Positions 1-14,867 of a stretch of 64,000 nt of DNA are shown in pieces. Positions within the stretch are counted from its first letter, which is position 1. Each line of letters opens with the position of its first letter. The stretch is from positions 1 to 64,000 of the forward strand of contig JASMJM010000170.1 of NCBI GenBank assembly GCA_030749725.1, in the 5' to 3' direction. A model generated the notes under the pieces. That model saw nothing but the letters and a program-made list of their open reading frames with translations. It had not been told where the DNA came from and made no database searches. The stretch is from Pseudomonadales bacterium (lineage in GTDB: Bacteria > Pseudomonadota > Gammaproteobacteria > Pseudomonadales > Azotimanducaceae). The translations under genes were made by a program, and so were the position numbers.

Positions 1-2
1 GC

Positions 3-71
3 TATCGATTAAAGGAAAAGCTAAGAGCCGGAATTATTAAGAAACCACCACAAGAGATCACTACTGACTAG
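3..71 (+). CDS. C-terminal end of an IstB-like ATPase (IS21 family), partial
   Basis: The window opens inside a reading frame that stays open to a TAG at 69-71. The 22 visible residues start YRLKEKLRAG, similar to the basic C-terminal tail of IstB helper ATPases of IS21-family elements. The match is short, so the call rests mainly on the next feature: two copies of an IS-end-type repeat follow immediately. The rest of the protein lies before the window. Alternative: another transposition helper. Confidence 0.4.
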   Translation, partial: YRLKEKLRAGIIKKPPQEITTD

Positions 72-77
72 ACACAG

Positions 78-140
78 GGGGGTCAATTTTGAACTGCCGG
101 AATCAAATCAAAGGGGGTCAGTTTTAAACTGCCGTTGACA
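78..140 (+). mobile_element. Right end of an IS21-like element with two terminal repeat units
   Basis: Two near-identical 22-bp units lie at 78-99 and 113-134. Both begin GGGGGTCA and end ACTGCCG, and differ at two positions. The outer edge reads TTGACA, so from outside the element begins TGTCAACGGCAG. Multiple internal copies of the terminal repeat and TG...CA-type tips are typical of IS21-family ends. The tip is placed at about 140. The left end is outside the window, so target duplication cannot be checked. Confidence 0.6.
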
Positions 141-161
141 CTCTTCCTAAGGAGTAGTTCA

Positions 162-1208
162 ATGTCTGATGCCCATCTCAAGGTAGCGCCTTATGAGTTG
201 ATGGAGCGCCTGCCCGAAACATTGTTGACGGGTTGCTACGATGTGCCGATGGTTGCGGGCAAGAATATCCTCTGGTGCTCGACTCTGCAGCTGGCGTGGG
301 ATCATCTGGGTGACTATATCGGCAGCGATCCCGATCTGGAGAAGTCGACTATCACTGCTGACAGTCTCAATATGCATTTGGTCAATGCAGATGAGATTGA
401 TGCGGGCAGCCACGTTGCCATGGCTGGTATTGGCAGGGAGAAGATTGTCGAGCGGATCCAGGCAGCGCTGATAGATAAGTTCGGGGAGGACGTTGACACA
501 TCGCTGCTACCGGATCCCGGTGCTGTCGGTCCAATCGATCTGTTAGCGTACGCGTTCCTGCTTAAGTCGATGGAATTTTCCACGCCCTTTTTTGACCTGG
601 ATGAGAGCATCTTTGTCAGCTCCGAAAGAACAGCTAGATCAGTTAAGACCTTCGGCTATGATCCGGGCAGAAATGATGGTGATGAGGCTGTGCTGCGACA
701 GATCACCATACACCACTATGTCAGCAGGGATGAATTCATCATCGAGTTGCAGACAGAGATTGAGCAGGATCATCTGATCTTCGCACGCATACCGCCGGCT
801 GCCACGCTTGAGGAGACGATCCGGTATGCATGCCAACTGTTGACCTTCGGCGGGGATGCGGTCATGCCTTTCGACACGGACTATCCACTGACAATTCCCC
901 GACTTGACTTTGATATCACCCGGGAATTCCATGAGTTCATTGGTATATATCTGCTCAATGAGAACTTCGAAGAGTTCGTTTTCCAGACCGTGGCACAGAA
1001 TATTCGCTTCCGTTTGAATCGGGAGGGTGCACTGCTAAAAAGTGAGGCGGCCACCTTTCTGGTGGGCAGCTCTGAAGTGGAAACCGAGCCGCCAAGTTTC
1101 AACCTGTGTGCACCCCATCTGGTGTTGATGTTACGGGACGGCGCGCAGAATCCCTACTTCGCTCTCTGGCAGGACAATGGTGAACTGTGTGTACCGGCAG
1201 ATAAATGA
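162..1208 (+). CDS. Divergent serpin-like protein (tentative)
   Basis: 348 residues, no signal peptide. ATG 162 is preceded by TAAGGAG (148-154) and is preferred over an upstream TTG at 135 that lies in the IS end. No domain is obvious, but several segments fall in serpin order: KNILWCSTLQLAWDHL near residue 36 (serpin N-terminal NxxxSPxS helix), EFIIELQTE in the middle (strand before the LP motif), IPRLDFDI near 255 (PKF strand), NREGALLKSEAATF at 286-299 (hinge NEEGTEAAAAT), and APHLVLMLRD at 317-326 (RPFLFxIRD). If correct, it is a cytoplasmic protease-inhibitor fold with a poor hinge (K and S where small residues are usual), so inhibition is doubtful. The IS end sits 22 bp upstream and may have replaced its promoter. 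Confidence 0.4.
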   Translation: MSDAHLKVAPYELMERLPETLLTGCYDVPMVAGKNILWCSTLQLAWDHLGDYIGSDPDLEKSTITADSLNMHLVNADEIDAGSHVAMAGIGREKIVERIQAALIDKFGEDVDTSLLPDPGAVGPIDLLAYAFLLKSMEFSTPFFDLDESIFVSSERTARSVKTFGYDPGRNDGDEAVLRQITIHHYVSRDEFIIELQTEIEQDHLIFARIPPAATLEETIRYACQLLTFGGDAVMPFDTDYPLTIPRLDFDITREFHEFIGIYLLNENFEEFVFQTVAQNIRFRLNREGALLKSEAATFLVGSSEVETEPPSFNLCAPHLVLMLRDGAQNPYFALWQDNGELCVPADK

Positions 1209-1259
1209 AAGGGCGTTCGAACTGCGTAAGACCGGTGCCATCGAGCCGAGAATCTGTCT

Positions 1260-2384
1260 GTGAATAGAATCTTCAAGTCAGTCGTCTTTACACTGTCCAT
1301 GATCCTTTCTGGCTGTACCGATGCTGCCCCTCCGGTAGTCTTGGGCAGGGTTCCTGACGGTGGAATACAGCCGCAGTTAATCAGTGATCGAGAGGGAGGC
1401 GTTCGCCTCCTCTACTACAAGCACCTCAATAGCGATTCGAAACAGGGCCACCTCTATTACCGCAAGTACGTAGCTGTAAGCCAACGGTGGCTGAAACCGA
1501 TCCAGGTCGCCACCACAGCATACCGCAATGCAGGTACCATCGGGCGCGCATCAATGGCATTGGATGATCGCGGTCGCCTGCATGTAAGCTGGTTCAGCAT
1601 CAATCCCGCATCTTACTACTACAGCCGATCGAACCTGCAAAAAAGCCGGTTTGAAGCGGAGCGCTCATTGTTGACTGTGGATTTGAGCGAAGTGGAAGCG
1701 GCCGCAGATGTGGCGGTGTATCGAGACAGGGTCACGCTTAGCTGGCACGCAGGGCCACTTGACAGCGAACCCGCTCGGACCGTTTTTACTATGACCTCTG
1801 TCGACGGCGGTGAAACATTCAGCCATGCAACGGAAACAGGCGATACAGAGTTGGGCGCCTGTGCCTGTTGCAGTCTCGCTGCTGACTTCAGCAGCGAGGG
1901 AACGTTAATAGTTGGCTATCGAAGTGCCGTGAATGGTGAAGGACGCCATATGCAATTACTGAGCGTAGGTGACGGTACGACCGATACCAAGCTGATCCAT
2001 CAGTGGCAACTCAATGCGTGCCCTGTGTCTACCAATTACTTGAGTCGAGACACGAACAAACGACATTGGATGGTTTTTGAAACACAGGGGAGTATCTACC
2101 AGGTTCTCTTGGCGGGGAAGGAGACGACTCCCACACTGGTCAGGGCTCCCCAGGAGAAGACACGACAGAAACATCCTGCCATGGCTTTTAACAGTGCTGG
2201 TGAGAGGGTCGTCGTGTGGGGTGAAGGGTTTGGCTTTTTCTCGGGCGGAGATTTAGCCCTGCAGCTGTTTAGTTCTGTCGGTGACCCCACTTCCTCAGTC
2301 GACACGAAGGGCCTTAACATACCGGACAATAGTTTTGCCTCTGTTACCGCACTTCAAGACGGATCATTTCTCGTCCTGTATTAG
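1260..2384 (+). CDS. Lipoprotein with sialidase-like (BNR/Asp-box) beta-propeller
   Basis: 374 residues from GTG 1260. The N terminus is a lipoprotein signal ending in LSGC, with Cys19 as the lipidated residue. The body alternates short beta-rich segments typical of sialidase-like propellers: LLYYKH, RLHVSWFS, VTLSWHAG and a clear Asp box, SVDGGETF. A CACC cluster near residue 200 is unusual and could form a disulfide pair or bind metal. The catalytic Arg triad and Tyr/Glu pair of true sialidases are not evident, so a sugar-binding or sulfated-glycan role is as likely as hydrolysis. It lies on the same strand as the upstream serpin-like gene, about 50 bp away. Confidence 0.55.
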   Translation: MNRIFKSVVFTLSMILSGCTDAAPPVVLGRVPDGGIQPQLISDREGGVRLLYYKHLNSDSKQGHLYYRKYVAVSQRWLKPIQVATTAYRNAGTIGRASMALDDRGRLHVSWFSINPASYYYSRSNLQKSRFEAERSLLTVDLSEVEAAADVAVYRDRVTLSWHAGPLDSEPARTVFTMTSVDGGETFSHATETGDTELGACACCSLAADFSSEGTLIVGYRSAVNGEGRHMQLLSVGDGTTDTKLIHQWQLNACPVSTNYLSRDTNKRHWMVFETQGSIYQVLLAGKETTPTLVRAPQEKTRQKHPAMAFNSAGERVVVWGEGFGFFSGGDLALQLFSSVGDPTSSVDTKGLNIPDNSFASVTALQDGSFLVLY

Positions 2385-2393
2385 TCCCGTCTA

Positions 2394-3158
2394 CTACCCA
2401 CCACTGACAGTGATACGCTGATTAGTGATATAACGACCATCTTCCGAGCAGAGATGCACGACTGAAGCGGCTATATCGTCCGGTGTGCAGACGAAACCGA
2501 AGGGAGCATCGGCATCACGCAGGCGCATATCGTCGTTACCTGTAAGCAGGGAAATCAGTTTGCGTCCCATGTCGGTATCGACCAATCCGGGAGCGACTAT
2601 GTTAACCCGCATGCCATTGGATCTCTCTTCCTGAGCCAGTGTATGGGCCAATGCCTCCATACCCGCCTTGCCGACACTATAGGTTCCCATGCGTGCCCCC
2701 ATGCTCTGGGCAGCAACCGATGAAATCATAATGACATCGCTGCGCTCTGCTTCTCGCATGTGTGGAACGAGGGCGCGACACATATGGATGGGTCCCCACA
2801 GGTTCGCGCCGAGCAGAAGTTGCCATTGGGCGATGGTGGATTCGCTGATGGTCGGTCGATTCACGGCTGACGAACCGATACCGGCATTGTTTACCAGTAT
2901 GTCGATTCCCGAAAAGTCGTCAATTGCCTTTTCGCACATCTGCTCGCAGGTGGCCTGATCGGAAACGTCTGCCTGGTAGATCTCAGCCTTGCGGCCGAGT
3001 TTCGCTACTTCCTCCGACACTTCTCGTGCAGCATCCTCATTGCTGGCGTAGTTAATGGCTACGTCCGCACCCTCCTGGGCACAGCGCAAGACGATCGCTC
3101 GTCCAATGCCCCGACTTCCCCCCGTCACTAACGCTGACCTGCCATCCAATTTACCCAA
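2394..3158 (-). CDS. SDR family NAD(P)-dependent oxidoreductase (FabG-like)
   Basis: 254 residues, the usual classical-SDR length. Motifs are complete: TGGSRGIG at 12-19 (cofactor loop), NNAG at 90-93, catalytic Ser146/147, Tyr160 and Lys164 in YxxxK, and a C-terminal tail ending TVSGG, like FabG-type enzymes. INYASN after beta-2 suggests NADP preference. The upstream-facing neighbour is a DUF1080 sugar hydrolase and the downstream neighbour the BNR lipoprotein, with which it converges (10 bp gap). Substrate unknown; it could reduce a keto-sugar or hydroxy acid made by neighbouring enzymes. Confidence 0.85.
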   Translation of the reverse strand: MGKLDGRSALVTGGSRGIGRAIVLRCAQEGADVAINYASNEDAAREVSEEVAKLGRKAEIYQADVSDQATCEQMCEKAIDDFSGIDILVNNAGIGSSAVNRPTISESTIAQWQLLLGANLWGPIHMCRALVPHMREAERSDVIMISSVAAQSMGARMGTYSVGKAGMEALAHTLAQEERSNGMRVNIVAPGLVDTDMGRKLISLLTGNDDMRLRDADAPFGFVCTPDDIAASVVHLCSEDGRYITNQRITVSGG

Positions 3159-3519
3159 AATAGAATCTCCTCATTGTATTCTTGTCGGTGTTCCGGTATT
3201 GCCAGGCCCATACCTTAATCCATAATGCCTGGATGGCTCAAGACAACTATGTTCTCCACACAAGTGCCGATGGACGACTTGACGGGTATAAGTCGCGACA
3301 CTACCATCATGCCAGACAGCAGGAAGCGATGCTGCGCGAAGGGCGAAAGTTGATCAAGCAGAAGGCTAACGGAAAGGTCATCCGCAATCAGGGAATCCCA
3401 TGCTGACAAGTATGAATTATGCAGGTCTTACGTCTCACTTTGTTTCGACGCGAACGACACGGCGCGGAACCATAACTCATCCCTGGAAGCTCTCTTCGCC
3501 CCACAAAATAGTTGTTATC
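3159..3519. other. Intergenic region between divergent SDR and DUF1080 genes
   Basis: This stretch should hold two divergent promoters. Open frames crossing it (for example from a TTG at 3182) show no ribosome site or recognisable product. I see no strong hairpin or operator. Confidence 0.4.
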
Positions 3520-4302
3520 TTGAAGAAGATGCTACTCCTACTGACCTTGGTTGGCGCCTCTGTACATACGTTAGGTCAGGAAGGCAACGAGTCCGATGAG
3601 TGGATCAGCCTGTTCAACGGCCATGACCTGTCAAATTGGGTGGTTAAGTTTACCGGCCATGACCTTGGCAACAATTACCTGAATACCTTCAGGGTCGAAG
3701 ACGGTATCCTAAAGGTGTCCTATGATAATTGGTCCGAATTCAAGGGTGAGTTCGGCCACCTTTTCTATAATGCGGTTTTCTCCCACTACCTGCTCAGGGT
3801 GGAATACCGTTTCACCGGAGATCAGGCATCCAATGGCGCCGGCTGGGCCTATCGCAACAATGGCATTATGCTGCACAGTCAGGTGCCTGCGACCATGACT
3901 CGAGACCAGGAGTTTCCCGCATCGATTGAAGTGCAGATACTGGGTGGTAACGGTCGCCGCCAGCGTCCTACAGCAAATGTGTGCTCGCCGGGGACCCACT
4001 TCGTGATGGATGGCAAACTGATTACACGGCACTGTACCAATTCAGGCTCCGAGACGTTTCACGGCGATCAATGGGTGAGCCTGGAAATTGAAGTGCGAGG
4101 GAACAGCTTAATCAAGCACAGGGTCAATGGGGTAGAGGTCTTCACCTATACCAATCCCCAGTTGGATGAAAACGACGACGATGCCCGCAGACTGGTCGAT
4201 CAGGGTCAGTCTGTCGCCTTGAGCAAAGGCTATATCGCAATTCAGGCGGAAAGCCACCCCACCGAGTTTAGAAAAATCGAGATACTGCCGCTGTCGAAAT
4301 GA
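3520..4302 (+). CDS. DUF1080 protein (3-keto-disaccharide hydrolase family), secreted
   Basis: The frame is open from 3400, but the signal peptide starts at TTG 3520: (M)KKMLLLLTLVGASVHTLGQ. The mature part opens WISLFNGHDLSNWV, the DUF1080 signature (SLFNGKDLxGW), and the jelly-roll continues to IEILPL at the end (260 residues from 3520). Members of this family cleave 3-keto-glycosides or bind glycans in the periplasm. The gene converges with the GMC dehydrogenase gene (6 bp between stops), which fits a shared 3-keto-glycoside route. Uncertain points: the start codon has no clear Shine-Dalgarno site, and ATG 3529 is an alternative. Confidence 0.8.
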   Translation: MKKMLLLLTLVGASVHTLGQEGNESDEWISLFNGHDLSNWVVKFTGHDLGNNYLNTFRVEDGILKVSYDNWSEFKGEFGHLFYNAVFSHYLLRVEYRFTGDQASNGAGWAYRNNGIMLHSQVPATMTRDQEFPASIEVQILGGNGRRQRPTANVCSPGTHFVMDGKLITRHCTNSGSETFHGDQWVSLEIEVRGNSLIKHRVNGVEVFTYTNPQLDENDDDARRLVDQGQSVALSKGYIAIQAESHPTEFRKIEILPLSK

Positions 4303-4308
4303 CCAGCG

Positions 4309-6006
4309 CTACGCTCTGCCTGCTTCCACAAGGTCGGCAGCGTAATGAGCGGCTCGCGCGCTGAACGCCATGTAACTCAGGGACGGATTCTGACAAGCGG
4401 ACGACGCCATAAATGAACCGTCGGTTATGAATAGATTCGGAACGTCATGAGCCTGGCACCAGCCGTTTAGCACCGAGGTGGCAGGATCTCGACCCATTCT
4501 GGCACTGCCCATTTCATGAATTCGATTGCCCGGTTTGGTGAGAAATACCGGACCTGCAGCTATATTTGTACAGCCCGCTGCTTCAAGCATGGCAATGGCA
4601 TCTTTGCGCGCCTCCTGCAGCATGGTGCGTTCGTTCTCTCCCATGCTGCAGTTGAAGACTGCCAGGGGATTACCCCATCTATCACGTCGTGACGGGTGCA
4701 GGGTCACGCGATTGTCAGGATTGGGAAGCTGCTCGCCAAATGCGCCAATGCCAATCCGCCAGGGGCCGGGGCGTCTATGGGACTCCTTGAATGCACGCCC
4801 GATACCGGGAATCCGGCCACCGGCGTTACCCGTTGGCGCGGACCAACCCTGAAAACCGAAGCCGCGCTTGTAGGGTTTGTCCTGCCGAGCGATGTTGGCG
4901 TAGCGTGGGATATAGATGCCACCCGGTCTGCGCCCGAAAACGGTCTTGTTGTCAAAGCCGCCGATCAGACCGCTGGCATTGGCACCGCTCACATGATCCA
5001 TGAGATTCCTGCCCACCTGGCCGGAACGGTTGGCAAGACCGTCGGGGAACGCATCGGATCTCGACTGCAGCAGAATCAACGCCGAAGCAATGGTCGATGC
5101 ATTGAGAAAAACAAGCCGAGCCGTGTAAAGTCTTTGCTCGTTGGTTTCGGCATCCACCACCCGTACGCCGCTCACTCGACCCGTCTGCGCGTTGTAGTCA
5201 ACGGATTTGACGATGGCATTGTGAACGATGGTGCAGTTGCCACTGCGCGCCGCCGCCGGCAGCGTTGCATTAAGTGATGAAAAGTAGGCTTTGAACACAC
5301 AGCCGTGATTACAGAGATCCCGCGCCTGACAATTGCTGCGACCCAGTGCGCGCTGTTCCTCCGTCACCTGAGTAATATGTCCCACTCGGGCGGGAATGAC
5401 GTTACGACCCGGAAACGCGGCTTCGACTCTGGCTTTAAATTCTTTCTCCGCACAGGTCAGTTCGAAGGCCGGCTGGAAAATGCTGTCGGGTAGCTGCGGC
5501 AGACCTTCTGCGCTGCCTGAGATACCGGCAAAGCGCTCAACATGTTCATACCAGGGAGCGATGTCCTGGTAGCGGATCGGCCAATCGACGCCGATGCCTT
5601 CCAGCCTGTTGGCTGTAAAATCCTGGGGTCCAAGACGATACGTCTGGCGACTCCACATGATCGAGCGCCCGCCGGTATGGTAGCCGCGCAACCAGTCATA
5701 GCTGGTGCCCGTGGTCTCTTCATAGGGGTGTTCGTCGTCCTTTACCCAGAACTGCTTCGTGGTTGCCTTGATGGCATAGGCAACGCCGCCGTACTGTTTT
5801 GGATAATGCTTGGCTATTTCATCCTGCGGGATGCGGTCCAGATTGGGGCGCTGCCACGGCGCCATCTGGTCTGTGTAGTCTTTCTCCGGTTCGATTTTCC
5901 TGCCACGTTCCAGCACCAGAACTTTCAAACCGCGTTCACTGAGTTCCTTGGCACTCCAGCCACCGCTCATTCCGGAACCGACCACGATCGCATCAAAATC
6001 CGTCAC
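4309..6006 (-). CDS. GMC family oxidoreductase (sugar 3-dehydrogenase-like large subunit)
   Basis: 565 residues. An FAD-binding GSGMSGG loop lies at 10-16 and ends in LVLERGR. The C-terminal GMC_oxred_C domain has HEMGSARMG with His497 and NPSLSYMA with Asn540, the catalytic His/Asn pair of this branch. It lacks its own signal peptide. Members of this branch pair with a Tat-exported gluconate-2-dehydrogenase-subunit-3-like protein and a cytochrome, and some oxidise glycosides at C3. The partner subunit lies directly upstream (103 bp). No cytochrome c gene is adjacent. Third gene of the minus-strand operon. Confidence 0.88.
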   Translation of the reverse strand: MTDFDAIVVGSGMSGGWSAKELSERGLKVLVLERGRKIEPEKDYTDQMAPWQRPNLDRIPQDEIAKHYPKQYGGVAYAIKATTKQFWVKDDEHPYEETTGTSYDWLRGYHTGGRSIMWSRQTYRLGPQDFTANRLEGIGVDWPIRYQDIAPWYEHVERFAGISGSAEGLPQLPDSIFQPAFELTCAEKEFKARVEAAFPGRNVIPARVGHITQVTEEQRALGRSNCQARDLCNHGCVFKAYFSSLNATLPAAARSGNCTIVHNAIVKSVDYNAQTGRVSGVRVVDAETNEQRLYTARLVFLNASTIASALILLQSRSDAFPDGLANRSGQVGRNLMDHVSGANASGLIGGFDNKTVFGRRPGGIYIPRYANIARQDKPYKRGFGFQGWSAPTGNAGGRIPGIGRAFKESHRRPGPWRIGIGAFGEQLPNPDNRVTLHPSRRDRWGNPLAVFNCSMGENERTMLQEARKDAIAMLEAAGCTNIAAGPVFLTKPGNRIHEMGSARMGRDPATSVLNGWCQAHDVPNLFITDGSFMASSACQNPSLSYMAFSARAAHYAADLVEAGRA

Positions 6007-6109
6007 TGTTTATCTCCGCTGTAATGTGCGGGCCGCGCAGGTCGGGCCGCGTAGGGTGGCACGCATAGTGGCACGCACATTGTGGCACGCATGAAGTGAC
6101 GCATAGATC

Positions 6110-6631
6110 CTAGCGTTCCACACAGGGGTCCCATCGACCCGGGTTAGCCACCCACTTCCGCTCAAGCAGGGCACCTTCCTTGCTGGCAAAATAGGCCTGA
6201 GTGATAAGCCCCTTGAGATTTCGGTATCCGACGTGTGGTGAACCACTCTCAAACGCACGTCCGTCAAATTCACGTAAAGTCCTCTCCGCATCCGTTGAAT
6301 TGGCAGTGACGAAATCAGGGCCCAGCGCCTCTTCAATGTCGGTTAGGACGGTGTGCATGAATTGCCTGGTGGCTGCATTTGCCCACTCGACCATGAATCC
6401 ATCCAGAAAGCCCGGTACATCCGCATCGATCGCTCCCGGCGTTTCGGTTCTGGGAATGAGCAGATCGCTGATTCTGGAAACCAATGCCATTTCACGTTGG
6501 CTGAACAGTCGGCCGCGGGCCGCACTGGAATTCGTAGGCGTGACCTTTGCCATGCCACCGCAGGCAGCTAGCATAGAAGCCCCACCAACAGAAACAATCA
6601 GGCCCTGTAATATCTCTCGGCGTGTTTGCAT
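6110..6631 (-). CDS. Gluconate 2-dehydrogenase subunit 3-like protein, Tat-exported
   Basis: 173 residues. The N terminus MQTRREILQGL is a Tat-like twin-Arg motif, followed by a hydrophobic stretch and a possible lipobox ending AAC at Cys24. The body matches the small helical partner of GMC dehydrogenases: FSQREMALVSRISDLLIPRTETPGA is the family core. It is expected to escort the FAD subunit through the Tat system, since that subunit has no signal of its own. It sits between the TIM-barrel protein (33 bp upstream) and the GMC gene. Confidence 0.85.
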   Translation of the reverse strand: MQTRREILQGLIVSVGGASMLAACGGMAKVTPTNSSAARGRLFSQREMALVSRISDLLIPRTETPGAIDADVPGFLDGFMVEWANAATRQFMHTVLTDIEEALGPDFVTANSTDAERTLREFDGRAFESGSPHVGYRNLKGLITQAYFASKEGALLERKWVANPGRWDPCVER

Positions 6632-6664
6632 AGGTTCGCTGCCCTCGATGGTCTGATTGGCTGG

Positions 6665-7555
6665 CTAAAACACCAGGTTGCGCAGGGCCTTAATGCTGGC
6701 TGCAACCGACGTCAGCCCGCCGCCGGCACGACCGCCGCCGGTACGCCGGCCGCCGGAGCGCCGGCCGCCAGGATTGTCATGTTCTACAAAATAGTGCTTA
6801 AACCCAGCCGTATTCCGGTAGCTGAACAGTTCAGCAAAATCGATGCTGCCACTTCCCACATCGACCATCCTACGGCTGGAATCCATGTCCTTAACATGCA
6901 GCATGGCAAAGCGTCCCGGGTGTTTCTTGAAGTAAGGAATGGGGTCTACACCGGCATACATAATCCAGAACAGATCCATCTCCATGGCTACCAGCTCTGG
7001 GTCCGTTTCCGCCAACAGGATATCGTAGGGGATCTGGCTGTCGGTGGCTGCAAATTCAAAGTTGTGATTGTGATAGCCCATCTGCAAGCCGGCACTCTTG
7101 CACGCTTCCCCGGCACGATTTAACAATTCCGCGTTTCGATGGTAGTGGTCGAGGGTGCGCTCATTGGGTGGAATGAATGGCACGACCATGTATTTCTGGC
7201 CGATGATGAGCGCTGTCTCGATTTCGGTCTCGAGATTATCCCGGATCATCGGCAACGGAATGTGGGTGGCGGGGGATGTCATGCCGAGCTGATCCAGAAT
7301 CTGCCGGACTTCCTTCGAGGATTTGTCGAAATAGCCCGCGAATTCCATTTCGCTGTAGCCAAGCGCCGCGACCTTAGCCAGCGTACCGGTAAAGTCCTGT
7401 GCCATTTCACGGCGCAACGTATAGAGCTGAAGACCAATGTTTTTAAGGCGACGCGATGGTGCCGCGTGCAAACCCCAGGGAACTGCTGCCATGGACAAAG
7501 CCGCAGCGGCTTTGAGGAGGGTACGCCTGCTTTGCAGGATGTCGTTCATATGCAT
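6665..7555 (-). CDS. Sugar phosphate isomerase/epimerase-like TIM barrel, Tat signal, repeat insertion
   Basis: 296 residues with a Tat signal SRRTLLKAAAALSMAA and ATG 7555 preceded by GAGGGA. The xylose-isomerase-like barrel starts at IGLQLYTLRREM and includes YHNHNFEF and MEMDLFW with metal-ligand His and Glu, and MLHVKDMD. Such proteins isomerise or eliminate 3-keto-sugars in GMC/DUF1080 clusters. Odd: just before the last helix there is a Gly/Arg-rich insert of four 5-residue units (GGRRS, GGRRT, GGGRA, GGGLT) encoded by a 15-bp tandem repeat. It follows VEHDNPG, close to the end of the barrel, so activity may survive. Confidence 0.85.
   Translation of the reverse strand: MHMNDILQSRRTLLKAAAALSMAAVPWGLHAAPSRRLKNIGLQLYTLRREMAQDFTGTLAKVAALGYSEMEFAGYFDKSSKEVRQILDQLGMTSPATHIPLPMIRDNLETEIETALIIGQKYMVVPFIPPNERTLDHYHRNAELLNRAGEACKSAGLQMGYHNHNFEFAATDSQIPYDILLAETDPELVAMEMDLFWIMYAGVDPIPYFKKHPGRFAMLHVKDMDSSRRMVDVGSGSIDFAELFSYRNTAGFKHYFVEHDNPGGRRSGGRRTGGGRAGGGLTSVAASIKALRNLVF
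6710..6769. repeat. 15-bp tandem repeat, four units, in frame
   Basis: Units at 6710-6724, 6725-6739, 6740-6754 and 6755-6769. On the coding (minus) strand each starts GGCGG; the two units at 6740-6769 begin GGCGGCCGGCG and are nearly identical. The period is a multiple of three, so copy-number change keeps the frame. GC content is far above the flanks. Confidence 0.85.
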
Positions 7556-7915
7556 GGTGAACTCCCTCGCGCCTGTGGAGTCAAGGCAGGGTCACAATGT
7601 TTCAGGCATCTGAGCACGGTTAGTTCCGAGGACTTGTATGCTACCGGGTAATAGTGGTCCTTCGCATTCTCTTTGGTACTGAGTGGCGAATCAAGTAGCT
7701 GCTGCTTCATCGTAGGGGCCAGTCTGGCGGTAGGCACAAAGGAGCAGACCCTGATGCTGGTATGGTCGCTGACCGGCTTTTTTGCCGGATTTATCTACCC
7801 GGCCTGGTGCGCTATCTATCCAGATAATGAAGAGATCAATCTTCGCTGATCCATTGCTGGACGTTTTAGCGTTATAACGTTATGATGTTGTCCATTCAAG
7901 GACGGAGGGCAAATC
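7556..7915. other. Intergenic stretch with a possible membrane-protein remnant
   Basis: A plus-strand open stretch from about 7655 to a TGA at 7847-7849 encodes hydrophobic sequence with two possible membrane segments (FIVGASLAVG and TGFFAGFIYPAW) and no convincing start. It reads like the tail of a transporter, but I cannot name the family. The toxin-antitoxin promoter lies at its right end. Nothing else is evident. Confidence 0.3.
7870..7879. promoter_or_regulatory. Palindromic operator candidate for the RHH/RelE system
   Basis: CGTTATAACG is a perfect 10-bp palindrome, 37 bp before the antitoxin start. RHH antitoxins usually bind short palindromes over their own promoter. The TTATAA core may overlap the -10 box. 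Confidence 0.5.
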
Positions 7916-8149
7916 GTGAGCAATCTATCCAAAAGGTCCACCGTCTATTTCGATCCTTCAATCCACCATGCATTGAAACTCAGGGCCGCATCCAGCCAAT
8001 CGTCTCTCTCTGAGCTGGTGGACGAAGCTGTACGACTCCTCATGCGTGAGGATCAAGATGATCTCAGTGCCTTCGCAGATAGAGTCAATGAACCAGAGAT
8101 GAGTTATGAGGCCCTACTCAACGATCTGAAGAAGCTTGGCAAAATATGA
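7916..8149 (+). CDS. Ribbon-helix-helix (CopG-like) antitoxin
   Basis: 77 residues from GTG 7916, with GGAGGG at 7904-7909. The N terminus RSTVYFDPSIHHALKLRAA is the RHH strand-helix, followed by SSLSELVDEAVRLLM, the second helix. The acidic C-terminal part (EPEMSYEALLNDLKKLG) is the toxin-neutralising region. It overlaps the toxin start by 14 bp, so the two are translationally coupled. Role: autorepressor and antidote. Confidence 0.88.
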   Translation: MSNLSKRSTVYFDPSIHHALKLRAASSQSSLSELVDEAVRLLMREDQDDLSAFADRVNEPEMSYEALLNDLKKLGKI

Positions 8150-8393
8150 CATCACGTTTAAGAGATCGGTGGCGAAGGATCTCCGCGGCATTCCCAATCA
8201 AGACGTAAAACGTATTCTGAGTCGGATCGATGATCTAGCGGAAAATCCGAGAGGGCAAGGCTGTCTAGAACTCTCCGGCCAAGATCGCTACAGAGTTCGA
8301 TGGGGCTATTACCGGATTATTTATGAGATAGTCGATGACAGGCTGGTGGTGGTTGTTGTCAAAGTGGGGTCGGGCGTATACCAGGCTGGCTAA
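8136..8393 (+). CDS. RelE/ParE family toxin
   Basis: 85 residues from TTG 8136, overlapping the antitoxin. RelE-fold features: FKRSVAKDLRGIP helix, RILSRIDDLAENPRG, the strand RYRVRWGYYRIIYEI, and VVVVKVGSG at the end. Arg and Tyr residues in RVRWGYYRIIY fit mRNA-interferase-type RelE, acting on ribosome-bound mRNA. Length is normal and the gene is intact. It resembles the second system at 58304-58775 in layout. Confidence 0.88.
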   Translation: MAKYDITFKRSVAKDLRGIPNQDVKRILSRIDDLAENPRGQGCLELSGQDRYRVRWGYYRIIYEIVDDRLVVVVVKVGSGVYQAG

Positions 8394-8432
8394 CAACCTG
8401 AGATAGGCGCGCCAGCCCGCAACAATGCAGCA

Positions 8433-9491
8433 TCACACCCGTCGCATGGAAGGAAGGACGGCACTTTCCATCAATGTTTGACTGCCATCGCGTCTGCCGC
8501 TGACCGGACCGCTGAGAATGAGTTTGTCGAGGCCAAGGTCCTGTAATCCCTGCAAACGTTCGATGCAGTGGTCGGGTGATCCAACGATGGCGAAGCGATC
8601 GATAAACTCATCGGTTAGAACGCCAGCTTGCGGCGAATCACCACGGGTGTGCTCGCGCATATCGTAAGCATCATGTATGGAGTTCAGTATCTGACGCTGA
8701 TCAGCAGAGACCGGCCCCGATACCTGACCATGCATGACAGAGAATCGTGCAAACGTGGTCAGTCCACCCTTGACCATCTCTCTGGCGCGTTCCTGGTCCG
8801 TATCGCAAGCGCAATTCACATAGGCACCCAAGGCGATATCGCTTGGATCGAGACCTGCCTCGCCACGCGCTCGGCGTACCGTTTCAATGCCCCAGGCGAT
8901 GCGTTCCGGCTCTGCGCCGAGTGTAAACATGACTCGATCAGCATGCCGGGCCGCGATGGCAATCACCATGGGTCCGGTTGCTGCAACCTCGACAGGAACT
9001 TTCTGCCCATCGCTCATCCACTCTATACTGCTGTCCTTGGGCGTATCCGACAATCCGAGATTCTCAACCGGTTCTGCCACGCTGGCCGGAATGTCAATCT
9101 CATCAAAAGGCACCGCGTCTCCATGCAGGTATATCTGCAGGTGACGCAGATACGTCTCGAACTGTGACAACCGAGCCGGTGCTCGCCCAAGATGAGCCAG
9201 AGCCGAGTCACCCCGACCGATACCCAGAACGGCGCGACCCTTTGACAGTCGCTGAATGCTGGAAATCGCCGAAGCGGTCACCGCCGCATATCGAGTCACC
9301 GAATTGGTTACACCCGGACCAATTCCGATCCGCGTAGTTGCGGCTGCTGCCATCGCCAGTGCAACGTAACAATCCCCTGACAGATTCTGTGAGTCGACCA
9401 CCACCAACCCATCCCATCCAGCGTCTTCATTCTGACGTGCCACGTGTTGAATGCCTCTTGGTGAAGCATTCCCTAAAGTCCAAAGTTCCAT
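8433..9491 (-). CDS. LLM class (luciferase-like) flavin-dependent oxidoreductase 1
   Basis: 352 residues from ATG 9491 (AGAGGGA ahead; a GTG one codon upstream is possible). TIM-barrel bacterial-luciferase fold: WTLGNASPRGIQHVARQNEDAGWDG start, RIGIGPGVTN strand, GRAVLGIGRGDSAL flavin-site loop, and IVGSPDHCIERLQ at the C terminus. The pattern is closer to F420-dependent methylene-H4MPT reductase-like members than to two-component monooxygenases. Cofactor (F420 or FMN) and substrate cannot be set from sequence. Neighbours: sulfatase upstream and the toxin gene convergent. Confidence 0.85.
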   Translation of the reverse strand: MELWTLGNASPRGIQHVARQNEDAGWDGLVVVDSQNLSGDCYVALAMAAAATTRIGIGPGVTNSVTRYAAVTASAISSIQRLSKGRAVLGIGRGDSALAHLGRAPARLSQFETYLRHLQIYLHGDAVPFDEIDIPASVAEPVENLGLSDTPKDSSIEWMSDGQKVPVEVAATGPMVIAIAARHADRVMFTLGAEPERIAWGIETVRRARGEAGLDPSDIALGAYVNCACDTDQERAREMVKGGLTTFARFSVMHGQVSGPVSADQRQILNSIHDAYDMREHTRGDSPQAGVLTDEFIDRFAIVGSPDHCIERLQGLQDLGLDKLILSGPVSGRRDGSQTLMESAVLPSMRRV

Positions 9492-9580
9492 CACAAAATC
9501 CCTCTAATTGATCAGTCTACTCCCACTGACACTCACCAAAGTCTTCCGACTTATTCAAGCGCGTTGTTTTGGGGTACATA

Positions 9581-9723
9581 GCAGAAGGGCTGCGGTCTCC
9601 TTTTCGTAGCGATCGGGCGTAGCGCCGAGCGCGCGGAGAGAGACCCAAAGGGGCTCTCGACCAAGTGAGGGCAGCTGGGAGAGTCGCTGCGCCGCGGAGA
9701 AAAGGAGACCGCAGCCCTTCTGC
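9581..9723. repeat. 143-bp MITE-like element with 25-bp perfect inverted repeats
   Basis: The arm at 9581-9605 (starts GCAGAAGGGCTGCGG) is exactly complementary to 9699-9723. Complementarity continues imperfectly inward (TAGCGA against TCGCTGC). The interior has no reading frame of interest. It fills the gap between the convergent-side LLM gene start and the sulfatase stop. It could be a non-autonomous transposon or a large hairpin ending sulfatase transcripts. No clear target duplication is visible. Confidence 0.7.
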
Positions 9724-9788
9724 GGACAGACTTGATAAAATCTAAAGAAGATGTCAGCCGAGCTTCATCCATTGATTGCTACCATCCG

Positions 9789-11243
9789 CTAGATCAACCC
9801 CAGCCTCTCATACTGCCCCTCCGGCGAATCCATCTCCCGCATTGTTTGCTTCAGCAGTTCGACGTATTTCTCTTCCATCTCCGATCCTGCCAAGTTGCGC
9901 AGCTGGCCCGGGTCGTCTTCGATGTTGAAGAGCTGCGTGTCTTTAACGGTGCTCCACCTGTTCATGTGCCAACGGGTACGCAGCACCGCCAGGTCCGTGT
10001 AAGGCAGAAACTGCCCGAACTCCGCATCCTCAAAGAACTGCGCTCCCGGCACCTCATGGAAGTGATAGGACGTCGGACTCAGAAAATGCTGATATAGCGG
10101 ACCGTTGTCCTCGCGCGCCGCGGCCCGCATGTAGGTGAAGCTGCCGTCGGTGACGTTTACCGGCATGCCGAACCAGCCGTACAAGGCCGCCTTGCGCTTG
10201 ACGGGCGCATCCTTTTCAAGGACCTCCTTAAGGGACTCGCCGTGAATCGGGTGTTCAAAACTCACGTTAAAGAAATCCAGCAACGTCGGCATCATGTCAA
10301 TGTTCTGGGTAAGCTGACTGCGCCTCTGTCCGGCGTGCAGATTGCCGGGCAGCTTGATGACCAGTGGGATGTTGCCGAGCTCATTCCAAACGTGCCAGCG
10401 ATTCTTGCCGGTGCTGTCGTGCTCGCCGATCAGATGGCCATGGTCGGTGGTCAGAATAATGAGCGTGTCGTCGAAGCTGTTCTGCCGTTCCAATTCGTCG
10501 AAGAGCTTGCCCAGATATTCATCCGCCATGCTGACTGTACCAGCGTATTGCCTGCGCAGATGGGTGGTGGCCTCCTCACCCTCCTCCACCTCACGGTATG
10601 TCGTCCAGTCATAGCGCGGTCCCTTCCAGTCATCGCCATAGCGATCCACATATTCCCTGGGACAGTCAAACGGTTCGTGGGGATCGAACCCCTCTACCCA
10701 CAGAACATAGTCGTCAGCGCCTTCATTACGCTGCAGCCAGTCGATGGCACCGGTGAATGTCTTTGGGGTTGAATAGTTTGCGGCACTGGTAAAAGCCTCG
10801 CGGTTCATATCATACTGGGCGCTCCAACGGCCCAGGTGTTCTGGTTCGGCCGGTGGTGTCGTCGCCGAACGCCAGCAGTCCCCTTCCTGGCCGCGGTGAA
10901 AGGCGTAGGTATCGAACTGGGTGTGATAGTCCTCGCCACCCACGTGGAAATAGTGATAGTGGTCGGTCTCCATATGGGATCGGATGCCGGCGCCTCTCAA
11001 GAGACGTGTGAAGGGAATGTCAAAGGGTTCGATGGGTCCCCAGTTTCGTTCCAGGAAATTCAGCCGGCCGGTGAGGATATCCCGCCGAGCCGGCATACAG
11101 GGGGCAGACCCAATCCAGTGGTTGTCGAATACCATACCCTTGTCAGCCAGGCGCACTATATTGGGTGATTGCATCCAGTCGTTGCCGTAGATGGGCAGGT
11201 AGTTGCGGTTCAAGCTGTCGAGAAGGACGAATATGACCTTCAT
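9789..11243 (-). CDS. Type I sulfatase (arylsulfatase family)
   Basis: 484 residues from ATG 11243, preceded by GGGAGA; an upstream extension lacks support. Asp9 in LLDS is a calcium ligand. The formylglycine site is CMPAR with Cys49 (CxPxR), so it needs the anaerobic or FGE-type maturase, not seen in this window. TTDHGHLIGEHD carries the metal-site Asp/His. No signal peptide, so it acts in the cytoplasm on imported sulfate esters or related phosphonates/phosphates. Divergent from the HMG-CoA-lyase-like gene. Confidence 0.9.
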   Translation of the reverse strand: MKVIFVLLDSLNRNYLPIYGNDWMQSPNIVRLADKGMVFDNHWIGSAPCMPARRDILTGRLNFLERNWGPIEPFDIPFTRLLRGAGIRSHMETDHYHYFHVGGEDYHTQFDTYAFHRGQEGDCWRSATTPPAEPEHLGRWSAQYDMNREAFTSAANYSTPKTFTGAIDWLQRNEGADDYVLWVEGFDPHEPFDCPREYVDRYGDDWKGPRYDWTTYREVEEGEEATTHLRRQYAGTVSMADEYLGKLFDELERQNSFDDTLIILTTDHGHLIGEHDSTGKNRWHVWNELGNIPLVIKLPGNLHAGQRRSQLTQNIDMMPTLLDFFNVSFEHPIHGESLKEVLEKDAPVKRKAALYGWFGMPVNVTDGSFTYMRAAAREDNGPLYQHFLSPTSYHFHEVPGAQFFEDAEFGQFLPYTDLAVLRTRWHMNRWSTVKDTQLFNIEDDPGQLRNLAGSEMEEKYVELLKQTMREMDSPEGQYERLGLI

Positions 11244-11387
11244 TCTGATTCTCCCGTGGCGACGTGGTCCGGTAGAATGTACCATGAATGGCTGCGGGAA
11301 CTCATCCTGTGGCGGCGCCGATAGAGTGTTTCGGATCAAGCCCTGATGGTTGGCAGTACACGTACCTCATATCACAGAGAGGCCAAC

Positions 11388-12479
11388 ATGAACAAATTGC
11401 CTAAGTCGGTAGAGGTCAGGGACGACACCATGCGGGAAGGATTACAGATCGAGAGCAAGGACATCTCTGTTGACGAGAAATTGAGACTCCTCGACGCGCT
11501 CGGAGAGACCGACATCAAGGTCATCTCCATCGGCTCCTTTGTCAGTCCGAAGTGGACCCCCCAAATGGCGTGCATCGACGAGATCGCGGAGCGATTTGAG
11601 CCGAAACCCGGCGTCACCTATACCGCCGCGGTCTTCAACCAGCAGGGCTTTGAACGGGCTGACAAGTATTACCCCAAGATCAACGTGCGGACGCGCGAAT
11701 ACATGACTCACGTCGAGGTGGGTGGGACATTCGCCATGCGTAACTACAACAGGACCGCGGAGCAAATGCTGCAGTCTGTTGACGGCACCGTTGAACGAGC
11801 CAAACAAGCCGGTGTCGAATCGGGAGGAATTGTCATTGGCAATCCCTTCGGTTCCAACTTTGAAGGGGATGTCCCCCTTGATCAGTCGTTGGCTGTTTTT
11901 GCGCAGGTGATCGACCGATGGCATGCGCAAGGTCTGAAGGTGGCGAGCTGCAGAATCCTCGATGATATGGGTGCATGTATGCCTGATCAACTGACTGAAA
12001 TGCTGTCCGCTATCAGGTCGAGATGGCCGGAGATAACCGACTTCGGTCTTCATCTTCACAATCAGCGAGGCGTCACCAATATCTGTTATTACGAGGCCCT
12101 CAAGTTTGGCGTCACCCGATTCGATACATCGCTCGGCGGCCTGGGTGGCTGTCCCTATTGCGGTAACGGCAGAAGCGCTGGACACGTTCCAACGGAAGAT
12201 TTCGTCTATATGTGCGAAGAGATGGGCGTCGACACCGGTCTTGACCTCGACAAATTGATAGAGGCTACCGCCATCGCCGAGGAAGTCGTCGGTCATCCGC
12301 TGTGGGGGCATGTCTCAAAGGCCGGGCCTCGGCCACGGGGTAAAACGCTCTACCCGAAAGACATGCCGTTCGTCGAGACGCTCGAGGAAGCCAGTCATTT
12401 CAGAAAGGGCCCATCCGTATACGCTCACCAGGTGAAGCCTTGGCGAGAAGACAGCGCACTAATGAAATCGTTGGATTAG
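11388..12479 (+). CDS. HMG-CoA lyase-like aldolase
   Basis: 363 residues from ATG 11388, with GAGAGG at 11377-11382. RDDTMREGLQ near the N terminus corresponds to the RDG(x)REG(L)Q metal/substrate motif of the DRE-TIM metallolyases, here with DD for DG. HLHNQRG supplies the HxH metal ligands, and GLGGCPYCGNG is the HMGL active-site Cys loop. Likely a Claisen-type lyase on a 3-hydroxy-3-methylglutaryl-CoA-like thioester. Preceded by the divergent sulfatase gene (145 bp). Confidence 0.88.
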   Translation: MNKLPKSVEVRDDTMREGLQIESKDISVDEKLRLLDALGETDIKVISIGSFVSPKWTPQMACIDEIAERFEPKPGVTYTAAVFNQQGFERADKYYPKINVRTREYMTHVEVGGTFAMRNYNRTAEQMLQSVDGTVERAKQAGVESGGIVIGNPFGSNFEGDVPLDQSLAVFAQVIDRWHAQGLKVASCRILDDMGACMPDQLTEMLSAIRSRWPEITDFGLHLHNQRGVTNICYYEALKFGVTRFDTSLGGLGGCPYCGNGRSAGHVPTEDFVYMCEEMGVDTGLDLDKLIEATAIAEEVVGHPLWGHVSKAGPRPRGKTLYPKDMPFVETLEEASHFRKGPSVYAHQVKPWREDSALMKSLD

Positions 12480-12834
12480 TATCGGGCCTAGCAGAAACTC
12501 CGCATTAGATAGGTTCCTAACGGTACATCTACATCGTACCTCATGGGTCACGTATATCATTTTCAGCTTCTCCTGATCCAATGTTCGTACCTTAGGGCGT
12601 CTGCCCGAGCGCCAGTACAATTGGACAGCACTGTATTGTCGATTCGACAATCGATCTGTTGCAGCCCCGAGCCATATCCCGATAGTCAGCTTCTATCTCC
12701 ATTCCACCCACGTCGAGCTTTCATACCGAACACTGACTGATGTCGGTTTTTTTCGGTGAGAACGGTGTTAATACTCCAAATACACCAAGTGAACTGCAGA
12801 GCCTTGATCGGAGCAATTGACGGGGGAAGAAGCA
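12480..12834. other. Intergenic region, no gene seen
   Basis: No convincing reading frame. The only structure noted is the palindrome at 12635-12651. Confidence 0.4.
12635..12651. promoter_or_regulatory. 17-bp palindrome, operator candidate
   Basis: ATTGTCGA-T-TCGACAAT, 8-bp arms, perfect. It lies about 185 bp before the truncated transporter gene. No regulator is encoded next to it. Confidence 0.35.
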
Positions 12835-12835
12835 A

Positions 12836-13276
12836 GTGTCAACAAAAGCCAGTAAGGTGAGCATCTTTTTCTATGGATTCGGCAATCTATCACCTGCCAT
12901 CAAGGGAAATTTCCTTGGTGCACCGATCTTCTATTACTACAACAACGTTCTTGGTCTTGAAGCATGGCTGGTCAGCTTAGCACTGGCACTGGCTCTCGTG
13001 ATCGACGGTATTACGGACCCGCTGGTTGGCTACATGTCCGATCACACTCGGTCCAGGTTTGGGCGACGTCACCCGTATATCTACGCCAGTGTACTTCCAG
13101 GCGCGTTGTGTTACTTCTTCCTGATTATGGCCAACTTCGGCACGTCACAATCGGCAACGGCAAAAAGCAGTCCGGCTGGTTTGCTTGCACGTACCGATCT
13201 GCAGGACATTCACACCATGATAGACTATGCTCAGTTGCCGAAAATTGAATCAGTGCAGGTAAAGGAGACTCTATAA
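12836..13276 (+). pseudogene. Truncated GPH-type (glycoside-pentoside-hexuronide:cation) MFS transporter
   Basis: 146 residues from GTG 12836 (GGGGGAAG ahead). Residues 1 to about 100 match the start of a GPH/melibiose-type symporter: FYGFGNLSPAIKG, two membrane helices, ALVIDGITDPLVGYMSDHTRSRFGRRHPYI (the family D-P-x-x-G loop). After FLIMANFGTS the sequence becomes polar and unrelated, and the protein ends where 11-12 helices are expected. So most of the transporter is deleted. The stop overlaps the ABM gene start (TAATG), so the stub may still be translated and drive that gene. Confidence 0.75.
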
Positions 13277-13707
13277 TGAAGACAGACTCAAACCGCCGGG
13301 ACTTTCTGACCACGACATTAGTTCTCGCTGGTGCTTCTACGGTTGGACAACTGGGGTTTGTCCGTGAGGTCGCCGCCAAGGAGAACAGCATCACCCAGTT
13401 GGCAAGCTTTCGAATAAATCCTGAAAAGGAAGCGGAAGCCTTGGCGTTTCTAAAAGAACTCACTGCAGCCGTTGAAGCCAAGGAACCGGGCGTGCTGGCA
13501 TACATCGCTCACCGCTCGTCATCGGATCCGAATCTGCTAACGTTCTTCGAGATCTATGCGGACGAAGCGGCAGTTGCCAATCACGGCAAACAACCCCACC
13601 TTGCGGGAATGGGCAAGGCGTTTCGCGATGGAGTTTTCAGACCCTTTGCGGAAGGACGGGCCGTAAAAGTCGAACGACTCGACCGGGTAAGCGGCTTTTC
13701 GCGGTAG
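13276..13707 (+). CDS. Tat-exported antibiotic-biosynthesis-monooxygenase (ABM) fold protein
   Basis: 143 residues. NRRDFLTTT is a Tat motif, followed by a hydrophobic stretch and REVAAKE. The mature part is a single ABM ferredoxin-like domain: ITQLASFRINPEKEAEALAFLKEL, GVLAYIAHRSSSDPNLLTFFEIYADEAAV, HLAGMG. Single-domain members include quinol monooxygenases like YgiN and heme-degrading enzymes; substrate unknown. Export is unusual for this family. Coupled to the upstream stub by a 1-nt overlap. Confidence 0.82.
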   Translation: MKTDSNRRDFLTTTLVLAGASTVGQLGFVREVAAKENSITQLASFRINPEKEAEALAFLKELTAAVEAKEPGVLAYIAHRSSSDPNLLTFFEIYADEAAVANHGKQPHLAGMGKAFRDGVFRPFAEGRAVKVERLDRVSGFSR

Positions 13708-13883
13708 TAGCTGCAACTTATAGAGGTCGTTACCTACAGGAGTTGGCTCTTCAAGCAACGTGGACCCGTTCCTGCAAGCCAAGTGTCACGATGGCTCTGC
13801 CTGTGGACTGTTGCAGGTTCGTTGGTCGAAGCAAAGAAAACGCCAGCATGTCAACCAAACTCGTGCGCTGAGTTGCCCCGGAC

Positions 13884-14795: not shown

Positions 14796-14867
14796 ACCAG
14801 ACCCCACCGGTTGCTTTCGATCCGCGAATCACTAATAATCAAGACCAGAAAAAGCGAGGGAACGATA

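Follow-up and report, generated by a model that had tools for sequence, protein, structure and literature searches.

We describe a four-gene cluster, at positions 3520 to 7555 of a 64,000-nucleotide stretch of DNA (positions 1 to 64,000 of contig JASMJM010000170.1 in assembly GCA_030749725.1, from a Pseudomonadales bacterium of the Azotimanducaceae; hereafter, the window), that probably encodes an exported oxidation-elimination-hydration module for glycosides, with C3 oxidation, 1,2-elimination, and hydration all taking place outside the cytoplasm. Glycoside cleavage by redox and elimination is a recently recognized alternative to glycoside hydrolases. Eliminases of this kind are described in PMC10628242. 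The cluster encodes a DUF1080 protein, a glucose-methanol-choline (GMC) flavoprotein dehydrogenase, a gluconate 2-dehydrogenase subunit 3 family protein, and a triosephosphate isomerase (TIM) barrel protein (Table 1). A literature search over titles and abstract openings, covering part of the literature, found no paper on it. If this reading is true, glycosides would be opened by this route outside the cytoplasm, in an exported version whose flavin/iron-sulfur (Fe-S) oxidation is carried by twin-arginine translocation (Tat). The cluster also offers four defined assay targets and a DUF1080 subclass with an active site that is unreadable from known ones.

Gene content and layout

The initial annotation of the window, made from the sequence alone, had placed four neighboring genes of these families here, three codirectional and one convergent, and had given export signals to three of the products. 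Both statements hold. All four reading frames are open at 3520 to 7555, and the genes for the GMC protein, subunit 3, and the TIM barrel converge on the DUF1080 gene, which was assigned a TTG start at 3520 in a longest open reading frame (ORF) beginning at 3400. Each product scores above its Pfam gathering cutoff: the DUF1080 protein with PF06439 (E value, 1.5e-37; 129.9 bits against 26.8), the GMC protein with GMC_oxred_C (3.5e-22; 79.9 bits against 24.6) and GMC_oxred_N (7.1e-9; 36.2 bits against 23), subunit 3 with Gluconate_2-dh3 (2.6e-15; 57.4 bits against 23.4), and the TIM barrel with AP_endonuc_2 (4.6e-14; 53.2 bits against 31.1). Export signals were read by eye from the translations; the leader of the DUF1080 protein is Sec-like, that of subunit 3 has twin arginines and a lipobox, that of the TIM barrel has twin arginines, and the GMC protein has none.

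Table 1. Genes of the cluster and a repeat within it
Feature	Position	Strand	Family and remarks
DUF1080 / 3-keto-disaccharide hydrolase family gene	3520..4302	+	PF06439; Sec-like leader; subclass with QAESHP motif
GMC flavoprotein dehydrogenase gene, 3Fe-4S type	4309..6006	-	Pfam GMC_oxred_C/N; no signal of its own
Gluconate 2-dehydrogenase subunit 3 family gene	6110..6631	-	PF13618; twin-arginine lipoprotein-like N-terminus
AP_endonuc_2 TIM-barrel gene	6665..7555	-	PF01261; twin-arginine leader
15-bp-period tandem repeat, 3.7 copies, within the TIM-barrel gene	6715..6769	-	Tandem Repeats Finder

Predicted cleavage enzymes

From its sequence, the TIM barrel is proposed to be a metal-dependent 3-keto-glycoside 1,2-eliminase. 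In the Protein Data Bank (PDB), it matches 8tcd (E value, 6.8e-30) and the Agrobacterium tumefaciens O-glycoside beta-eliminase (AtOGE; 8bvk; 4.5e-24). The metal ligands of AtOGE are His132, Asp163, and His189, with a weakly bound Glu233, and its catalytic residue is His134, according to PMC10628242. AtOGE residues H132, H134, D163, H189, and E233 align with H162, H164, D194, H220, and E258 of the window protein, and these five residues are invariant in 17 aligned sequences, as are the twin arginines. Near its C-terminus, the window protein has an extra 15 Gly/Arg-rich residues that are absent from 16 aligned relatives and coincide with the tandem repeat region; gain or loss of whole 15-bp copies would keep the reading frame. 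The initial annotation had made no mention of this insert.

The fold of the DUF1080 protein was predicted with AlphaFold from 33 sequences (predicted local distance difference test score, 92.3). Searching with this model, Foldseek ranked 4jqt first and 9fbe fifth, and VIA-align was used for a second look over the Foldseek list. The title of 9fbe names a 3-keto-glycoside eliminase/hydratase with 2-hydroxy-3-keto-glucal; it aligned with a Z score of 20.2 (root mean square deviation, 3.1; 197 aligned residues; 19% identity), tied with 3hbk (19.8) and 4jqt (19.6). The AL2 hydratase 8v31 scored 18.5, the BT2 hydratase 8tda 18.4, and BT2157 (3osd) about 18.5. All of the top 14 rows by Z are DUF1080-family entries, including 8rr2 (eliminase/hydratase), and CBM66 and lectin-like folds rank below them. 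Structure prediction, which the initial annotation had put forward as a check, sided with it for this protein. A PDB search with the DUF1080 sequence alone gave 0 matches, and a 33-row profile gave 14; since that profile mixes the two subclasses described below, cleaner evidence comes from comparing the predicted fold of the window protein itself. Based on the model, we propose that the DUF1080 protein hydrates, or hydrolyzes, the 3-keto intermediate.

The 33 aligned DUF1080 sequences split into 15 window-like sequences (the window's included) and 18 on a canonical side, recognized by an L-D and Q-D-H criterion that was derived in this analysis and is not an official definition. On the canonical side, Asp142 (100%), Asp243 (94%), and His244 (100%) are conserved; in the window-like sequences, these positions hold Gly in 87%, Ala in 73%, and Glu in 100%, and His246 is present as well (100%). 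The five PDB alignments displayed for the 33-row profile, among its 14 matches, all carry the L-D residue and a Q-x-H motif. Among 15 window-like DUF1080 genes situated away from the cluster, L-D occurs in none, L-G occurs in 13, and Q-x-E occurs in 13, with 2 unresolved by pattern for the latter. At two loci (L100:11741-13323 and L111:11702-13426), both subclasses stand side by side between pairs of the GMC1 and GMC2 types described below, with the window-like copy adjoining GMC1. The host genome has a second DUF1080 copy (L035:5889-6788, contig C173) with the canonical QDH motif; it is broken by an in-frame TAG and looks like a pseudogene, and a profile search of the 12 kb fetched detected neither a GMC gene nor a subunit 3 gene.

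Predicted dehydrogenase

The best PDB match of the GMC protein is the large subunit of fructose dehydrogenase (FDH; 7w2j; E value, 1.6e-40; residues 4 to 555), at only 26% identity, and glucose dehydrogenase 6a2u matches at 3.3e-31. The weaker of the 17 matches include pyranose oxidases, cellobiose dehydrogenases, and an aminoglycoside oxidase, and no choline or simple alcohol oxidase is among the 17. The initial annotation had named grouping with such oxidases as the result that would count against it, and the fructose and glucose dehydrogenase large subunits are the best matches instead. The NCBIfam choline dehydrogenase model gives the GMC protein 38.3 bits against a cutoff of 605. In a small tree rooted on Escherichia coli BetA, which is 21% identical, the window protein sits in a clade termed GMC1 (support, 0.83) with proteins from loci of the same type, separate from a GMC2 group, and BetA attaches outside GMC1 (support, 0.83). 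BetA is the single protein of choline/alcohol oxidase type in this tree and also its root, so the tree is a weak test of grouping and shows only that BetA falls outside GMC1. A DUF1080 gene adjoins GMC2 in 4 of 4 loci in a set of 58 genomes. No GMC2 ortholog was seen in the host genome, where the best matches besides the window gene are 31 to 32% identical.

Three cysteines of the GMC protein, C226, C232, and C236 (CX5CX3C, residues 226 to 236), align with those of FDH and glucose dehydrogenase, and the motif is present in 87 of 90 related GMC ORFs; the protein also has HxxGxxRMG at 497 and NPSL at 540. In the Burkholderia glucose dehydrogenase (BcGDH), Cys212, Cys218, and Cys222 ligate a 3Fe-4S cluster and the small subunit is a Tat hitchhiker (PMC6719666); in the same paper, a covalent bond of its His105 to flavin adenine dinucleotide (FAD) is one that "might form." In subunit 3 of the window, the twin arginines at residues 4 and 5 are nearly invariant across 46 sequences. 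A GMC protein without a signal and a subunit 3 with one fit co-export as proposed for the glucose dehydrogenase "hitchhiker" in PMC6719666, and by analogy we propose subunit 3 as a Tat hitchhiker and anchor for the GMC subunit. A Pfam scan of the 10 proteins at 135 to 11339 found no cytochrome c gene, and the remaining genome was not searched for one. The initial annotation had extended this absence to the whole window; it stands for those 10 proteins and for 6 others that were checked.

Gene order and co-occurrence in relatives

Scanning a single genome for each species, we found 80 loci that encode a relative of the GMC protein and analyzed the 34 most similar; the 31 with at least 73% identity to the window GMC protein (73 to 81%) were counted as orthologous, and loci whose contig ends too early were dropped from each denominator. 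Genes of relatives were called with a longest-ORF script, which yields approximate starts and some wrong-strand ORFs, and a window-like TIM barrel is one with blastp similarity to the window protein. Among the informative orthologous loci, subunit 3 lies directly upstream of the GMC gene in all 30, a window-like TIM barrel is upstream in 21 of 27, and a convergent DUF1080 gene lies within 1 kb in 15 of 29. Conservation of the four-gene order, to which the initial annotation had tied its reading, was found in 11 of 25 informative loci and also in two loci excluded from that denominator (L118 and L122). If placement were random, about 0.0001 DUF1080 genes should fall no farther than 1 kb from the GMC 3' end, against the 15 of 29 observed; this figure takes the DUF1080 density in the 58 genomes, the host included (27 matches, 5 of them under the cutoff), and assumes 3.8-Mb genomes. 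Also upstream in informative loci are Gfo/Idh/MocA genes (14/25), a second TIM barrel that shows no blastp match to that of the window (13/25), and sugar ATP-binding cassette (ABC) genes (10/25); one of these last 10 cases (L110) rests on a 60-amino-acid ORF, and the families were confirmed by Pfam on examples. A cluster in Agrobacterium tumefaciens CNPSo 675 (L155) holds sugar ABC transporter genes, a TIM barrel, Gfo/Idh/MocA, a second TIM barrel, GMC1, and subunit 3.

Co-occurrence was assessed in the 58-genome set and in 390 genomes of the order, with neighborhoods taken for most, not all, GMC matches. In the smaller set, 4 of 8 other strong GMC1 loci have a DUF1080 gene within 10 kb. A search with DUF1080 only (E values up to 1e-12) found 20 window-like genes in 17 genomes of the order. 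A GMC1 gene is present in 16 of these 17 genomes against 44 of 390 overall (hypergeometric, 6.6e-16) and, counted by genus, in 10 of 10 with the DUF1080 subclass against 24 of 143 overall (2.7e-9), on the assumption that the GMC and DUF1080 searches covered the same sample. Because six genomes with both genes belong to one genus, these values overstate the association; the genus-level value is fairer, and kinship inflates both.

Weighing of the alternatives

Several observations weigh against the reading of the cluster as an exported oxidation-elimination-hydration module. The sole NCBIfam match of the TIM barrel is inosose dehydratase IolE (58.4 bits, far under the cutoff of 290), and the best for the GMC protein is cholesterol oxidase (61.2 bits, far under the cutoff of 850). 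Met117 of the GMC protein occupies the column of the probable FAD-linking His, where the remaining GMC1 rows, 14 in number, hold Met, Leu, Ile, or Thr and the 5 GMC2 rows hold His; the FDH counterpart of BcGDH His105 was assigned by us. Subunit 3, whose structural comparison the initial annotation had also suggested, has no credible match by PDB sequence search, Foldseek, or VIA-align, where the rows (ATP synthase and other chains) reach Z scores of 3.7 at most. The window DUF1080 protein has L141-G142 and Q242-A243-E244 and lacks the canonical Asp and Asp-His of L-D and Q-D-H, so its chemistry may differ. As for gene order in the informative orthologous loci, 6 of 27 lack the window-like TIM barrel, 14 of 29 lack a convergent DUF1080 gene within 1 kb (in L115, L117, and L119, there is one 3 to 7 kb away), and the exact order TIM barrel, subunit 3, GMC, and convergent DUF1080 is seen in only the 11 of 25. 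Only 5 of the 20 window-like DUF1080 genes, counting that of the window, lie within 1 kb of this GMC gene. Profile searches of the regions fetched around the other 15, some of them on short contigs, detected no genes of the GMC, subunit 3, or Gfo/Idh/MocA families, and the TIM family gave one weak match, 6 kb away, in L219.

It is possible, at well under even chances, that the pathway is right and the cleavage roles are swapped or redundant, with the DUF1080 protein cleaving 3-keto-glycosides as both eliminase and hydratase and the TIM barrel hydrating or serving other anomers or leaving groups. The titles of 9fbe and 8rr2 both name an eliminase/hydratase, PMC9007349 terms the family member BT2157 a 3-ketotrehalose hydrolase, and two loci (L100 and L104) have GMC and DUF1080 genes without a window-like TIM barrel. 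Retention of the AtOGE eliminase residues in the TIM barrel argues for the roles as we assign them, as does the loss from the window DUF1080 protein of the residues conserved on the canonical side.

Two independent neighboring families tied to 3-keto chemistry, the low identity of the GMC protein to FDH (26%), and the presence of this GMC gene in 16 of 17 genomes with a window-like DUF1080 gene make it unlikely that the GMC protein and subunit 3 form an ordinary exported sugar or polyol dehydrogenase that acts elsewhere than at C3, its product being used otherwise by the neighbors, for example through inosose-dehydratase-like elimination by the TIM barrel. That explanation draws on the nearest solved enzymes, fructose and glucose dehydrogenases, which are not known to oxidize C3, and on the below-cutoff IolE match. 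A chance neighborhood of unrelated secreted sugar enzymes, with which the 5 of 20 DUF1080 genes near GMC would agree, is highly improbable in view of subunit 3 (30/30), the window-like TIM barrel (21/27), the exact order (11/25), and the kinship-inflated genus count (10/10 against 24/143; 2.7e-9).

We return to the exported oxidation-elimination-hydration module as the probable reading. As a tentative extension of it, the DUF1080 subclass (Q-x-E, mostly QxESHP in the cluster, and L-G for L-D) might be a retooled group of enzymes that has a different set of catalytic residues and is fitted to what a single GMC1 dehydrogenase clade produces, and the cluster might work entirely outside the cytoplasm as a redox-driven glycosidase for a class of glycoside not yet known to be cut in this way.

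Proposed route and later steps

To judge by family, the GMC protein, carried through Tat by the lipoprotein-like subunit 3, would oxidize a glycoside at C3, with electrons passing from FAD to the 3Fe-4S cluster and on to an acceptor not seen nearby. The TIM barrel, with its conserved catalytic residues and a divalent metal (Mn2+ in AtOGE), would then abstract the C2 proton through His164, and the aglycone or second sugar would be expelled to leave a 2-hydroxy-3-keto-glycal. The exported DUF1080 protein, whose fold comes from the model, may hydrate this glycal to a 3-keto-sugar or cleave substrates that the TIM barrel does not. Finally, the 3-keto-sugar would enter the cell, perhaps through an Rbs-type ABC transporter, for processing by cytoplasmic Gfo/Idh/MocA and TIM-barrel enzymes. 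We infer the C3 regiochemistry, the division of labor between the TIM barrel and the DUF1080 protein, the location, the import route, and the substrate.

Candidates for the cytoplasmic steps are present elsewhere in the host genome assembly (3.84 Mb in 173 contigs). On contig C62, two adjacent genes are counterparts of genes at locus L096, one matching its cytoplasmic-type TIM barrel at 66% identity and the other its Gfo/Idh/MocA enzyme at 47%, and the region (L183:8285-12444) holds two convergent Gfo/Idh/MocA and TIM-barrel pairs. Two genes beside these pairs resemble ABC exporter halves by eye. An Rbs-like binding protein is encoded on contig C135, adjoining genes that by eye resemble its ABC ATPase and permease, and this transporter is perhaps the importer for the pathway. 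The host genome has the exported and cytoplasmic halves apart; roughly one in two informative orthologous loci has them together.

The initial annotation had proposed a periplasmic oxidize-then-cleave route with two ThuA proteins (45673 and 56917) as possible later steps. The cleavage part is supported by the matches of the TIM barrel and the DUF1080 protein to 3-keto-glycoside eliminase/hydratase structures; the ThuA part is unsupported. Both genes match Pfam ThuA, their neighbors are a family-5 solute-binding protein and a pyrroloquinoline quinone (PQQ) dehydrogenase, and no linkage to the cluster was found in the window. The Gfo/Idh/MocA enzyme and cytoplasmic-type TIM barrel on C62 are likelier later steps.

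Neighboring features

The GC content is 0.53 to 0.57 throughout the window, and composition therefore shows no sign of transfer, despite the nearest GMC relatives in the order sample (75 to 78% identical) coming from another family. A search of positions 1 to 16000 of the window found no RNA families. Shuffled sequences gave 3.6 promoter-like sites (standard deviation, 2.3) and 4.4 terminator-like sites, compared with 7 and 4 in the actual sequence; given these counts, we make no claim about transcription.

A sulfatase gene (PF00884; 9789 to 11339) lies about 2 kb from the cluster, and a sulfatase is also found near the orthologous cluster of L059 (57-1400); a sulfated glycoside is therefore a possible substrate. 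A ParE-like toxin gene (PF05016) is located at 8136 to 8393, within a stretch of about 7916 to 8393 in which a short open frame just upstream of it, read by eye, may encode its antitoxin. Two genes for PQQ-type dehydrogenase beta-propellers are present in the window, at 14811 to 16781 and 54979 to 56898.

Comparison with known systems

In the 3-keto-glycoside system of gut bacteria, oxidation is reportedly performed by NAD-dependent Gfo/Idh/MocA enzymes, whereas in the window it is assigned to a GMC dehydrogenase with a Tat partner. Both cleavage families of the window are represented among the gut-bacterial elimination and hydration enzymes (8tcd, 8tcr, 8tcs, 8tct, 8v31 [AL2], and 8tda [BT2]), structures that presumably go with Nasseri et al. 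2024. With FDH (7w2j) and BcGDH (6a2u), the window dehydrogenase shares the GMC fold, the cluster cysteines, and a small subunit with a Tat signal (PMC6719666). It differs from them at the position of the probable FAD-linking His, which is Met; its identity to FDH is 26%, and no cytochrome c gene is among the neighbors scanned.

The LacABC lactose 3-dehydrogenase of Caulobacter crescentus includes a cytochrome subunit. Near the window cluster, no gene for a cytochrome subunit was seen, and the cluster adds an exported TIM barrel. LacABC and CCNA_01705 are an earlier example of a dehydrogenase working in the periplasm together with a DUF1080 protein (PMC9007349); the likeness lies in a membrane-bound dehydrogenase acting in the periplasm and a nearby DUF1080 protein proposed to hydrolyze the 3-keto-glycoside.

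AtOGE (8bvk) belongs to the same TIM-barrel family as the window protein, in which its metal ligands and catalytic His are kept, and it is itself encoded in a GlycDH operon that also holds a different oxidoreductase and a further isomerase-like gene (PMC10628242). The window TIM barrel differs in its twin-arginine leader and its partnership with a flavin/Fe-S dehydrogenase. LacABC with its DUF1080 protein is the closest precedent in biology, and AtOGE with the eliminase/hydratase structures is the closest in chemistry; the route itself is already known, and the cluster brings unusual parts to it.

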